64,000 nucleotides of DNA from an uncultured Pelagibacteraceae bacterium (GTDB lineage Bacteria; Pseudomonadota; Alphaproteobacteria; Pelagibacterales; Pelagibacteraceae): positions 1-64,000 of the forward strand of contig CACAWY010000002.1 in assembly GCA_902536385.1 (NCBI GenBank). The letters are read 5' to 3'. Positions 222 through 4,061 of the stretch are shown one piece after another. The notes under the pieces were generated by a model. The model worked only from the letters and a program-made list of their open reading frames with translations, did no database searches and had not been told where the DNA came from. Each line of letters opens with the position of its first letter. Within the stretch, counting starts at the first letter, position 1. The translations under genes were made by a program, and so were the position numbers.

Positions 222-249
222 CTTGAAAAAATAAAAATAATTCCCATAT
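222..249 (+). promoter_or_regulatory. Sigma-32 (RpoH) heat-shock promoter of hsp20
   Basis: CTTGAAA at 222-228 and CCCATAT at 243-249 are separated by 14 bases. This matches the E. coli RpoH consensus (CTTGAAA, 11-16 bases, CCCATnT) at every defined position. The predicted transcription start is about base 256-257, roughly 50 bases before the hsp20 start codon. That RpoH drives this gene is inferred from the sequence and from the usual regulation of small heat-shock genes. Confidence 0.85.
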
Positions 250-256
250 CAGTATT

Positions 257-306
257 GTCGGTTGCCAAATGGGACTGACATTAACCTTGCTAACAAAGGA
301 GGATAT
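257..306 (+). promoter_or_regulatory. ROSE-like RNA thermometer in the hsp20 leader
   Basis: The predicted 5' UTR folds into two hairpins. Hairpin I pairs 257-263 with 273-279 and 265-266 with 271-272 around an AAAU loop, leaving G264 bulged. Hairpin II pairs CCTTGCT (285-291) with the Shine-Dalgarno stretch AAGGAGG (296-302) across a short AACA-containing loop. A TTGCT element opposite the SD, with a G-G or bulged G inside an imperfect stem, is the hallmark of ROSE thermometers of alphaproteobacterial and enterobacterial small heat-shock genes. This leader is shorter than classical ROSE elements. Melting on heating would free the SD. Confidence 0.65.
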
Positions 307-760: not shown

Positions 761-783
761 CTTGCGGAGTTTAACTCCGCAGG
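761..783. terminator. Bidirectional hairpin terminator between hsp20 and a lipoprotein gene
   Basis: TGCGGAGT (763-770) and ACTCCGCA (774-781) form an 8-bp G+C-rich stem with a TTA loop, extendable by C761-G783 and T762-G782. It sits between two convergent genes, 10 bases after the hsp20 stop and a few bases before the end of the minus-strand gene. It has no long U tract on either side, but the position and strength of the stem make a shared terminator likely. Confidence 0.7.
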
Positions 784-1173: not shown

Positions 1174-1227
1174 TTAAGATTTTGTTACGTATATAGAGTA
1201 ATAAACTCATAACGGAGGTTTAATTAT

Positions 1228-2538
1228 ATGATGGAAAAATATTTTGAGTACAGAAAAAACAAAACAAATTTTAGAACTGAAGTAATCGCCGGTGTGACAA
1301 CTTTCCTAACAATGGCTTATATCATGTTCTTAAATCCTTTTATCCTCTCTGGTGAATTCGCTGGAACAGAAAAAGGTTTTTTTGACTTTGGAGCAGTATT
1401 CACTGCAACAATTTTAGCAAGTGCTTTAGCCTGCTTTATAATGGCCCTGAGGGGTAAAACTTGGCCTGTGGGATTAGCGCCTGGAATGGGAATCAATGCA
1501 TTTGTTGCTTACGGGGTGGTTGCAGGAATGGGTTACACGCCTCAAGCAGCTTTAGGAGCTGTTCTCGTGGCAGGTGTAATCTTCTTAGCAATTTCATTAA
1601 CGCCATTGAGAGCTTGGTTAATAAATTCGATTCCAAAAAGCTTGAAACTTGGGATTGGCGCAGGAATAGGTTTGTTCTTAGCAATTATTGGACTGGAAAT
1701 AATGGGAATAACTGCAGATCATCCAGTAACGTTGGTTACATTAGGTGATATTAAAAATCCTTTAGTGCTTTTAGCATGTGCAACTTTTGTATTCATGATT
1801 GTTTTAGAGAAAATGAAAGTTAGAGGAAATATTATAATTGGTATTTTGCTCTTTAGTATCATTGCATGGGTATCTGGTTTAGCTAAATTTAATGGTGTTG
1901 TAGGATCAATCCCCCCAATGACTTATTTGTTTGAGTTTGATCTTAAAGCGGCGCTTAGCGCTGGTATGGCTTCTATAGTCTTTACTTTATTGTTCATTGA
2001 CTTTTTTGATACAGCAGGAACACTTACTTCTGTAGCTAATGTTGCTGGAAAAGTTGACAAAAAAGGGAGAGTGCAAGATATTGATAAAGCAATGTTATCA
2101 GATAGTGTTGGTACAGTTGCAGGAGCTATGATGGGTACAACAACTGTTACAAGTTATGTTGAGTCAGGTTCTGGTGTAAAAGCTGGTGGAAGAACAGGAA
2201 TGACTTCTTTAGTCATTGGTGTATTATTCTTAGGTTGTTTATTTTTTGCACCTCTAGCTACAAGTCTGCCAAAAGAAATAGATGGGGCAGCCTTGTTATA
2301 CGTTTCAATCTTATTTGTTAGAAACATCACAGACATAGAATGGAACGATATAGCAGAGTCTGGTCCTGCAGTGTTAGCTATGTTGGTCATGCCATTGACA
2401 TACTCTATTTCAAATGGAATTGCTTTAGCTTTCATCGCTTACGCATTAATCAGAATTTTTACTGGTAAATTTGGTAAAACTTCTCCAGCAATCTGGGTAA
2501 TTGCAGTTTTAAGCGTATTAAGTTTTTATGTAGGTTAA
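1228..2538 (+). CDS. NCS2 family purine permease (AzgA/PbuG/GhxP-like)
   Basis: 436 residues and about 12-14 hydrophobic segments; an inner-membrane proton symporter for nucleobases. The N-terminus 'RTEVIAGVTTFLTMAYIMFLNP' and the segments 'GLAPGMGINAFVAYG' and 'DFFDTAGTLTSVANVAGK' are characteristic of the AzgA branch, whose members carry adenine, guanine or hypoxanthine; substrate choice cannot be read from sequence. GGAGG at 1214-1218 supports ATG 1228 (the second codon is also ATG). It converges on a purine phosphoribosyltransferase gene, so uptake and conversion to nucleotide are genetically adjacent: import, then salvage with PRPP. A strong hairpin terminator separates the two. Confidence 0.92.
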   Translation: MMEKYFEYRKNKTNFRTEVIAGVTTFLTMAYIMFLNPFILSGEFAGTEKGFFDFGAVFTATILASALACFIMALRGKTWPVGLAPGMGINAFVAYGVVAGMGYTPQAALGAVLVAGVIFLAISLTPLRAWLINSIPKSLKLGIGAGIGLFLAIIGLEIMGITADHPVTLVTLGDIKNPLVLLACATFVFMIVLEKMKVRGNIIIGILLFSIIAWVSGLAKFNGVVGSIPPMTYLFEFDLKAALSAGMASIVFTLLFIDFFDTAGTLTSVANVAGKVDKKGRVQDIDKAMLSDSVGTVAGAMMGTTTVTSYVESGSGVKAGGRTGMTSLVIGVLFLGCLFFAPLATSLPKEIDGAALLYVSILFVRNITDIEWNDIAESGPAVLAMLVMPLTYSISNGIALAFIAYALIRIFTGKFGKTSPAIWVIAVLSVLSFYVG

Positions 2539-2545
2539 AAATTCT

Positions 2546-2567
2546 AGGGCCAGTTAATTCTGGCCCT
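2546..2567. terminator. Bidirectional hairpin terminator
   Basis: AGGGCCAG (2546-2553) and CTGGCCCT (2560-2567) form a perfect 8-bp stem around TTAATT, followed on the plus strand by TAATTCTTTAATT. It lies between the convergent purine permease and phosphoribosyltransferase genes and can serve both. Confidence 0.8.
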
Positions 2568-2574
2568 TAATTCT

Positions 2575-3102
2575 TTAATTCATTTGATGTTTCTTTATTA
2601 AATCTTCAACTTTTATCTCTTCATAATGCTCGAAAGGCTGAACAATCCATGGGTTACTTTCTAACCTTTCCGCACAAAAATCAGGTTCAAAGGTTGAATC
2701 TTTTTTCTTCCATAAAACAGCTGTTTTAATTTCTTTTATATTTCCTTTTAGCGGTGGATATTTTTTTAACCAATCAATACTTTTATTTAATGTAACCCCA
2801 GTATCAGATAAATCATCGCAAAGTAGAATGTTGCCTTTCATCTCTTGAACTGTTGAACTCATTTCCCTAGAAAAAACTAAATCTCCTTGTTGATCTTCAA
2901 CACCTTCGCCAGAATAAGATTCTACGGCTAAATAAGCACATTTTAATTTGAAGACACGGCTTAATACATCAATGATTGGAGCAGCACCTCTCATAATTCC
3001 AATTAGCAGATTGGGTTTAAAACCACTTTTATAAACTTGTATTGCTAGTTTTTCTACGATTTGATTGTACTCTTTCCAATCAATGATAAGTTTATCTGCC
3101 AT
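2575..3102 (-). CDS. Xanthine/guanine-type phosphoribosyltransferase
   Basis: 175 residues, type I PRTase fold. The PRPP-binding motif is 'ILLCDDLSDTGVTL' (two acidic residues, then D-T-G-x-T), and 'LIGIMRGAAPIIDVLSR' is the PPi-binding loop. It transfers the phosphoribosyl group from PRPP to a 6-oxopurine to make the nucleotide. Overall layout resembles the Gpt/HpcT-like enzymes found in alphaproteobacteria and archaea; base preference (xanthine, guanine or hypoxanthine) is inferred from that resemblance and from the purine permease next door. It is divergent from the DUF1330 gene, with 33 bases between them. Confidence 0.85.
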   Translation of the reverse strand: MADKLIIDWKEYNQIVEKLAIQVYKSGFKPNLLIGIMRGAAPIIDVLSRVFKLKCAYLAVESYSGEGVEDQQGDLVFSREMSSTVQEMKGNILLCDDLSDTGVTLNKSIDWLKKYPPLKGNIKEIKTAVLWKKKDSTFEPDFCAERLESNPWIVQPFEHYEEIKVEDLIKKHQMN

Positions 3103-3135
3103 GAAGAAAGCTAAATTATTTTTAAGGAGTTGTAA

Positions 3136-3423
3136 ATGAAAGGTTATGTAGTTTGTGTTTATAAAAATATAACTAATGAAGAAAAGTTAAAAGAATATGC
3201 AATTAGAGCTAGAGCAGCAGTTGAAAAGTTTAAGGGAAAATTTTTAATTAGAGGTGGAAGATCAACATCGAATGAAGGTGAAAAGTCTCCAAGAACAGTA
3301 GTAATTGAATTTCCGTCCTATGATGAGGCTAATAAATTTTATAAGTCAGAAGAATATCAAGATGCACATTCTGTTCTTAAGGGCTACGCAGAACGTCAGC
3401 ATCAGATAATTGAGGGTGCTTAA
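3136..3423 (+). CDS. DUF1330 family protein
   Basis: 95 residues, the usual length of this dimeric alpha-beta (ferredoxin-like) family. Typical features are 'KEYAIRARAAVEKFKGKFLIRGG' and 'VVIEFPSYDEANKFYKSEEYQD'. AAGGAG at 3124-3129 precedes ATG 3136. The biochemical role of the family is not established. Its 3' end overlaps the end of the convergent glycosylase gene by four bases. Confidence 0.85.
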   Translation: MKGYVVCVYKNITNEEKLKEYAIRARAAVEKFKGKFLIRGGRSTSNEGEKSPRTVVIEFPSYDEANKFYKSEEYQDAHSVLKGYAERQHQIIEGA

Positions 3424-4061
3424 TACTGAATTGCAGTTGTGTCGATACTTCTCCATAAGAACATGGTAGCTACAGAGCAATAAGGTGAGAATTTTTTACC
3501 AAGATTTTTTGTAAATTTAACTGGCGGTAGATAATTTTTTTTATAATTCTTACTAATTGCTCTTAGTAAACCGATATCTAAAGTTTTTTTCTTATCATAA
3601 GTTGGCCAAATATTCGGTCTGTTCAAAGTAAAAATTAGTATCATCATTCCACTCCACATAGCAATTTGTCTTAAAGACGATAAATAAGTAATTGCGTCTT
3701 CATCATTCATTTTTTTTAGTAGTGCAGGATTAAATTCTTTTGTGATCATTTTTTTTGAAATATCTTTTATACCTAATGCTTTCATTCTACTTAAGCCACA
3801 TCTTCTCAAACTAGCAAATGATAACTTATTTATTATTTTGGGATTAATTTTACCCTTACATTTTGTCTTTAGTCTATTAAAGATAGCGTCTGCACTTTTT
3901 GTAGAAACTTGTTGACCACATACAGCTTTAACTAAAGAATAAAAAATATCTCTTCTTGTAGTTAATGTCACATCTTTATAAGTTAGAATTAATTTTTTCA
4001 TAACTTTATCTTTTTTTGATAAGTATTTTTTAGCCTTGTTCCAATAACTAGGCTTACTCAT
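3420..4061 (-). CDS. HhH-GPD DNA glycosylase (AlkA-like) with altered core motifs
   Basis: 213 residues. The family is recognisable from 'FYSLVKAVCGQQVSTKSADAIFNRL' (N-terminal helices of AlkA/Mag type enzymes) and 'PYCSVATMFLWRSID' near the C-terminus. Such enzymes excise alkylated bases such as 3-methyladenine. The helix-hairpin-helix, normally near 'IKGIGPWTAEM', reads 'LRQIAMWSGMM' (residues 130-140), so the two loop glycines are gone. The segment that should run straight from 'IWPT' to 'DIGLL' carries extra residues 'YDKKKTL' before a candidate catalytic Asp. It may be catalytically weak. The start overlaps the EamA gene stop by 4 bases (ATGA), suggesting co-transcription. Confidence 0.75.
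   Translation of the reverse strand: MSKPSYWNKAKKYLSKKDKVMKKLILTYKDVTLTTRRDIFYSLVKAVCGQQVSTKSADAIFNRLKTKCKGKINPKIINKLSFASLRRCGLSRMKALGIKDISKKMITKEFNPALLKKMNDEDAITYLSSLRQIAMWSGMMILIFTLNRPNIWPTYDKKKTLDIGLLRAISKNYKKNYLPPVKFTKNLGKKFSPYCSVATMFLWRSIDTTAIQY

Follow-up and report, generated by a model that had tools for sequence, protein, structure and literature searches.

How is a small heat-shock gene controlled in SAR11 bacteria, cells that are among the most abundant in the ocean and are noted for their very few regulators? The question is raised by the region upstream of hsp20 in a 64,000-nt stretch of DNA (referred to here as the window) from an uncultured member of the Pelagibacteraceae. The window begins within the final codons of a gene for an S9-type peptidase, and hsp20 follows. 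No other HSP20 gene was found in the draft genome (974 kb, ~82% complete). Its closest named relatives, uncultured Pelagibacteraceae and Ca. Pelagibacter ubique HIMB058, place it in SAR11. From the sequence, an original prediction placed both a sigma-32 promoter and a minimal ROSE-like RNA thermometer in front of this gene. The analysis described below indicates that positions 222-309 very probably constitute such a two-layer heat-shock switch, consisting of an RpoH promoter and a ROSE-like thermometer. The relevant features are as follows.

222-228, + strand: -35 element CTTGAAA of the sigma-32 (RpoH) type; TTGAA is conserved in the family, and groES and lon share the promoter type
243-249, + strand: -10 element CCCATAT of the sigma-32 type, preceded by T242; one mismatch to the consensus CCCCATNT
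~255-258, + strand: predicted transcription start, placed by its spacing from the -10 element; leader of ~50 nt
257-279, + strand: hairpin I, 7 bp plus bulged G264 plus 2 bp, with a 4-nt loop; covariation
285-302, + strand: hairpin II, in which the Shine-Dalgarno sequence AGGAGG pairs with a ROSE core, (C)CUUGCU, whose G289 is bulged; conservation and covariation
297-302, + strand: Shine-Dalgarno (SD) sequence AGGAGG
307-750, + strand: hsp20, small heat-shock protein (IbpA-like), 147 aa; PF00011, E 6e-20
310-319, + strand: codons 2-4 (ACA AGT AAG) plus G319, under strong synonymous constraint by tree counts

The promoter had been described as a full match to the RpoH consensus. Its two elements do lie at 222-228 and 243-249, separated by a 14-nt spacer in the CTTGAAA - N11-16 - CCCCATNT arrangement of sigma-32 regulon promoters, but the -10 element departs from the consensus at one position. 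Taken by itself the pattern is not beyond chance, with 0.58 occurrences expected per window. A genome-wide scan for CTTGAA-N11-17-CYATNT returned 16 sites and the reversed control also returned 16, so that the pattern is no evidence by itself. Among the four scan sites with the full CCATAT ending, however, three lie directly upstream of genes, namely hsp20, groES, and lon (the latter two named by looking at the protein sequences, without a family search), a set of genes expected for an RpoH regulon. The genome also encodes rpoH (TIGR02392, 364 bits, above the curated cut-off).

Conservation of the region was assessed in 110 hsp20 loci from Pelagibacteraceae genomes of at least 10 genera, and the promoter and hairpin features recur before hsp20 in nearly all of them. 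TTGAA is present between -80 and -120 in 102 of the 110 loci, and in 96 of these 102 the distance from the TTGAA core to the bulged-G core of hairpin I is 40 or 41 nt. The anti-SD motif and the SD are kept in 108 of the 110.

Hairpin I, which had been predicted as a 9-bp hairpin, occupies exactly the coordinates proposed for it, with one bulged G; positions 257-263 pair with 273-279, and 265-266 with 271-272. Across the family leaders its main helix is 99.6% paired. When changes were counted by parsimony on an hsp20 tree built without the first 15 codons, as a correction for relatedness, at least 30 coincident changes were found over the five outer pairs of the helix (5, 2, 13, 4, and 6), compared with 0-5 in mispaired columns. 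Over 90 distinct aligned leaders, 97.6% of cells are paired, and 109 double-changed cells were observed vs 24 in shuffles; the level of covariation was reached by none of 500 shuffles, and sliding the pairing partner sharply lowers these values. Compensatory changes, which the original prediction had proposed to look for in the leaders of relatives, are therefore abundant, and close relatives do not lack them.

These data bear on the simplest alternative, in which transcriptional control alone matters and the AT-rich leader forms its hairpins by chance. The counts of the promoter pattern and of the SD-hairpin motif do fit chance by themselves, the latter, followed by an ATG, being expected ~0.3 times per simulated 64 kb. 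Position before an HSP20 gene together with conservation nevertheless lifts them above chance, and the covariation, the conservation, and a leader fold z-score of -3.0 refute the chance-fold reading as far as structure is concerned; a chance origin of the leader structure is ruled out by the covariation. This alternative as a whole retains almost no probability. A transcription terminator was also considered and is unlikely, since no U-run follows hairpin I or hairpin II. Elsewhere, a GC-rich inverted repeat (GCGGAGTT/AACTCCGC, window 762-782) lies between hsp20 and a convergent small lipoprotein-like gene (787-1092, - strand), and is probably a terminator common to both.

The bulged-G motif of hairpin I, UYGCC/GGGR, resembles a ROSE core and is of the same kind as the core of hairpin II. 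ROSE_3 leaders from outside the class have it too, as if one motif underlay both hairpins. One group of SAR11 leaders (L080-L082, L086, L087, L089, L090, and L092) has a longer hairpin I loop, of the form UYGCU-UAAUGUUA-GGGCC, and in this long-loop group U-A replaces C-G beside the bulge.

The imperfect second hairpin that had been proposed, in which CCTTGCT pairs with the SD, is confirmed at 285-302 and carries a ROSE core. Positions 285-288 pair with 299-302 and 290-291 with 297-298, leaving G289 bulged, and the AUG of hsp20 at 307 lies 4 nt past the SD. The ROSE hallmark, a U(U/C)GCU sequence imperfectly paired with the SD around a bulged G in the 5′ leader of a small heat-shock gene, is thus present (287-291/297-300, G289), as is the layout of two hairpins in total with a stable hairpin I at the 5′ side. 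Within the Pelagibacteraceae, helix II is nearly fixed, which is expected because the strand is tied to the SD. In a class-wide alignment, however, C-G, A-U, U-A, and G-C are all seen at the basal pair of hairpin II, indicating compensatory change in hairpin II too, although that alignment was fitted to the model and its counts lean towards structure. Compensation of another kind is seen between the foot of the stem (column 55) and column 62. These are C and A in 62 leaders and A and U in 27, with one exception, so that the lower C-G lost with a foot A is made up by an upper U-A. The SD-masking helix accordingly has six pairs in 98 of 108 leaders, seven in six, and five in four, a near-constancy that may reflect selection for a roughly constant melting point.

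Nearest-neighbor folding describes hairpin II differently. It shows no sharp opening, with an unpaired SD fraction of 0.26 at 15 °C and 0.32 at 42 °C, and it tends to place the anti-SD strand in the CCUU/AAGG register or against codons 3-5 rather than in the ROSE register; in the window, ViennaRNA slightly favors the CCUU/AAGG register. The nearest-neighbor model gives no credit to the non-canonical pairs of a ROSE core, which surround the bulged G in the solved ROSE structure, and its melting curve was set aside as uninformative for this reason. Variant leaders rule against CCUU/AAGG as the conserved register: five (L078, L085, L088, L093, and L094) lose two of its pairs and all five keep the ROSE register. 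Four of them, from distant genera (L085, L088, L093, and L094), carry UCGCU, which U(U/C)GCU also permits.

A conserved structure need not be a thermometer. The leader could be maintained for some other purpose, such as mRNA stability or protein binding, with masking of the SD incidental. Covariation does support hairpin I much more strongly than hairpin II, and hairpin I is predicted not to open with heat. Such a role would leave unexplained a UUGCU/AGGAG core that is near-invariant, lower and upper pairs of hairpin II that compensate, and a leader that is repeatedly tied to Hsp20 across classes and overlaps ROSE_3 leaders, and it is considered improbable. The preferred reading, a promoter and a thermometer acting in series, is supported comparatively in both layers, the first by the groES and lon promoters and the presence of rpoH, the second by the U(U/C)GCU core with its bulged G and by the compensatory pairing in relatives.

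Under this two-layer model, heat stress would lead RpoH (sigma-32) to transcribe hsp20 from the promoter ending at 249. In the resulting ~50-nt leader, hairpin I (257-279) would be stable and hairpin II (285-302) weak, with the UUGCU core of hairpin II and its bulged G masking the SD. At normal sea temperature, hairpin II would restrict ribosome binding; at raised temperature it would melt locally and Hsp20 would be translated, while hairpin I would remain folded, perhaps as a scaffold or insulator. If so, the only small heat-shock gene found in this SAR11 genome would be under an RNA thermometer and its mRNA would sense temperature directly in a streamlined genome, which would provide a direct handle on the heat response in warming seas.

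The nearest known system is the ibpA gene of Pseudomonas, whose sigma-32-dependent transcript begins with two hairpins in a leader of 61-62 nt (Krajewski et al. 2013, PMC3669281). Functional tests showed that its hairpin II, containing U(U/C)GCU, melts on heating and that hairpin I is unaffected (PMC3669281). The SAR11 leader shares the sigma-32 promoter, the restriction to two hairpins, the masking of the SD by U(U/C)GCU, and the small-Hsp gene downstream, and differs in being shorter (~50 nt) and AT-rich, with six pairs in hairpin II. By analogy, it most likely works as the Pseudomonas leader does. The short two-hairpin design combined with a sigma-32 promoter is consequently not new, and single-hairpin thermometers exist as well. 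The SAR11 leader is a previously unlisted ROSE-like member whose architecture has been known from Pseudomonas since 2013. The main text of a 2009 article on the structured RNAs of P. ubique (PMC2704228) does not mention it, and no earlier description of the SAR11 hsp20 leader was found in the other literature examined.

Other ROSE elements are more distant. Classical rhizobial ROSE (RF00435, as in hspA of Bradyrhizobium) also has U(U/C)GCU with a bulged G opposite the SD of a small-Hsp gene, but is built of three to four hairpins over ~100 nt rather than two. The enterobacterial ibpA element (RF01832) has the same core and the same type of gene and is longer, with more hairpins. The hsp17 thermometer of Synechocystis, which is not known to contain a ROSE core, resembles the SAR11 leader in the very short leader, the masking of the SD, and the small-Hsp gene. 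It is made of one hairpin (PMC3669281). The search with Rfam ROSE models that had been suggested as a check did not recognize the window; there was no match at the gathering threshold or at E values up to 10, whether to RF00435, to the enterobacterial model, or to RF02523 (ROSE_3), and RF00435 had no match among the Pelagibacteraceae genomes of the class search.

The link to ROSE_3 came instead from covariance models of the element itself. A model from SAR11 leaders only (R1) detected it at E < 3e-5 in 14 alphaproteobacterial genomes from other families. Twelve of these matches precede an Hsp20 relative (tblastn), one an Hsp20-like reading frame recognized by eye, and one an RpoH-like sigma factor. 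A second model (R2), from the class-wide alignment and containing sequences of Alphaproteobacteria only, recovered two leaders from a different class of the same phylum, for which Rfam gives RF02523 (70.7 and 67.1 bits) on the same bases. These two ROSE_3 leaders (one genus, 5.4- and 6.7-Mb genomes, probably Gammaproteobacteria) precede Hsp20-like genes and have a hairpin I bulged-G core, GAUGCC...GGGU, as in SAR11. An intermediate, L124, matches ROSE_3 over its full length at 28.6 bits, below the threshold of 43. Within the window's own genome, no further convincing copy of the element was found (next best E 0.16).

Codons 2-4 of hsp20 raise the further question of whether the thermometer extends into the coding sequence. 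On the tree, codon 2 shows one synonymous change and codons 3 and 4 none; only five of 104 conserved-residue columns have one change or fewer, codons 2-4 being among them. AGUAAGG (313-319) is complementary to the anti-SD strand CCUUGCU (285-291) and could form an alternative stem. A two-state switch can be imagined in which CCUUGCU exchanges between the SD (the ROSE fold) and codons 3-5, in place of a simple melting zipper. The freezing of codons 2-4 speaks for this, given that AGT and AAG are minority codons (18% and 23%), as do the seven complementary bases, whose changes mostly keep pairing through G-U (AGGUAAGG, AGUAGGG in L065, L073, and L056). In a 72-nt transcript, ViennaRNA prefers the codon 3-5 stem, but the stem is lost in a 90-nt transcript, where the coding region pairs internally. 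The complementarity of single leaders is borderline against synonymous shuffles (median p 0.06) and is lacking in distant genera with the leader (median p 0.44), L072 breaks the stem, and codons 2-4 could be kept for another reason, UAAGGA itself being SD-like. Such an exchange is thus a rather doubtful mechanism, and it is correspondingly unlikely, if conceivable, that the SAR11 thermometer is a bistable element of ~65 nt that joins leader and coding sequence, with codons 2-4 frozen and a constant six SD-masking pairs.

Similar leaders are not confined to hsp20 genes. Three genera of one alphaproteobacterial order (four genomes) have a ROSE-type element of two hairpins immediately upstream of an RpoH-like sigma factor: L137/L270 (genome G365, before ORF 1779-2648, + strand), L239/L271 (G273), and L275 (G576). 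TIGR02392 is the best family for all three factors, below its cut-off in each case, and the two that were tested score above the cut-off of the sigma-32 subfamily NF005143. The arms of hairpin I differ among these leaders yet match (AGAACUGCU, GAAUUGCU, and AUAACUGCU), and their R2 scores are 45.6, 33.7, and 16.9 bits. A ROSE-type thermometer would here sit on the heat-shock regulator itself. Together with the ROSE_3 leaders, these elements suggest that two-hairpin ROSE is not limited to one class of Pseudomonadota and was recruited to rpoH in one order.

Among 387 alphaproteobacterial genomes, RF00435 has matches in nine (two over the cut-off) and R1 in 20 (E < 3e-5), with no overlap, which suggests that short ROSE leaders are under-annotated in Alphaproteobacteria and that Rfam ROSE models miss many. 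In another family of the class, a ROSE-like two-hairpin leader (L253/L272 of genome G726, 26 bits) precedes a lon protease gene (ORF 1180-3501, + strand).
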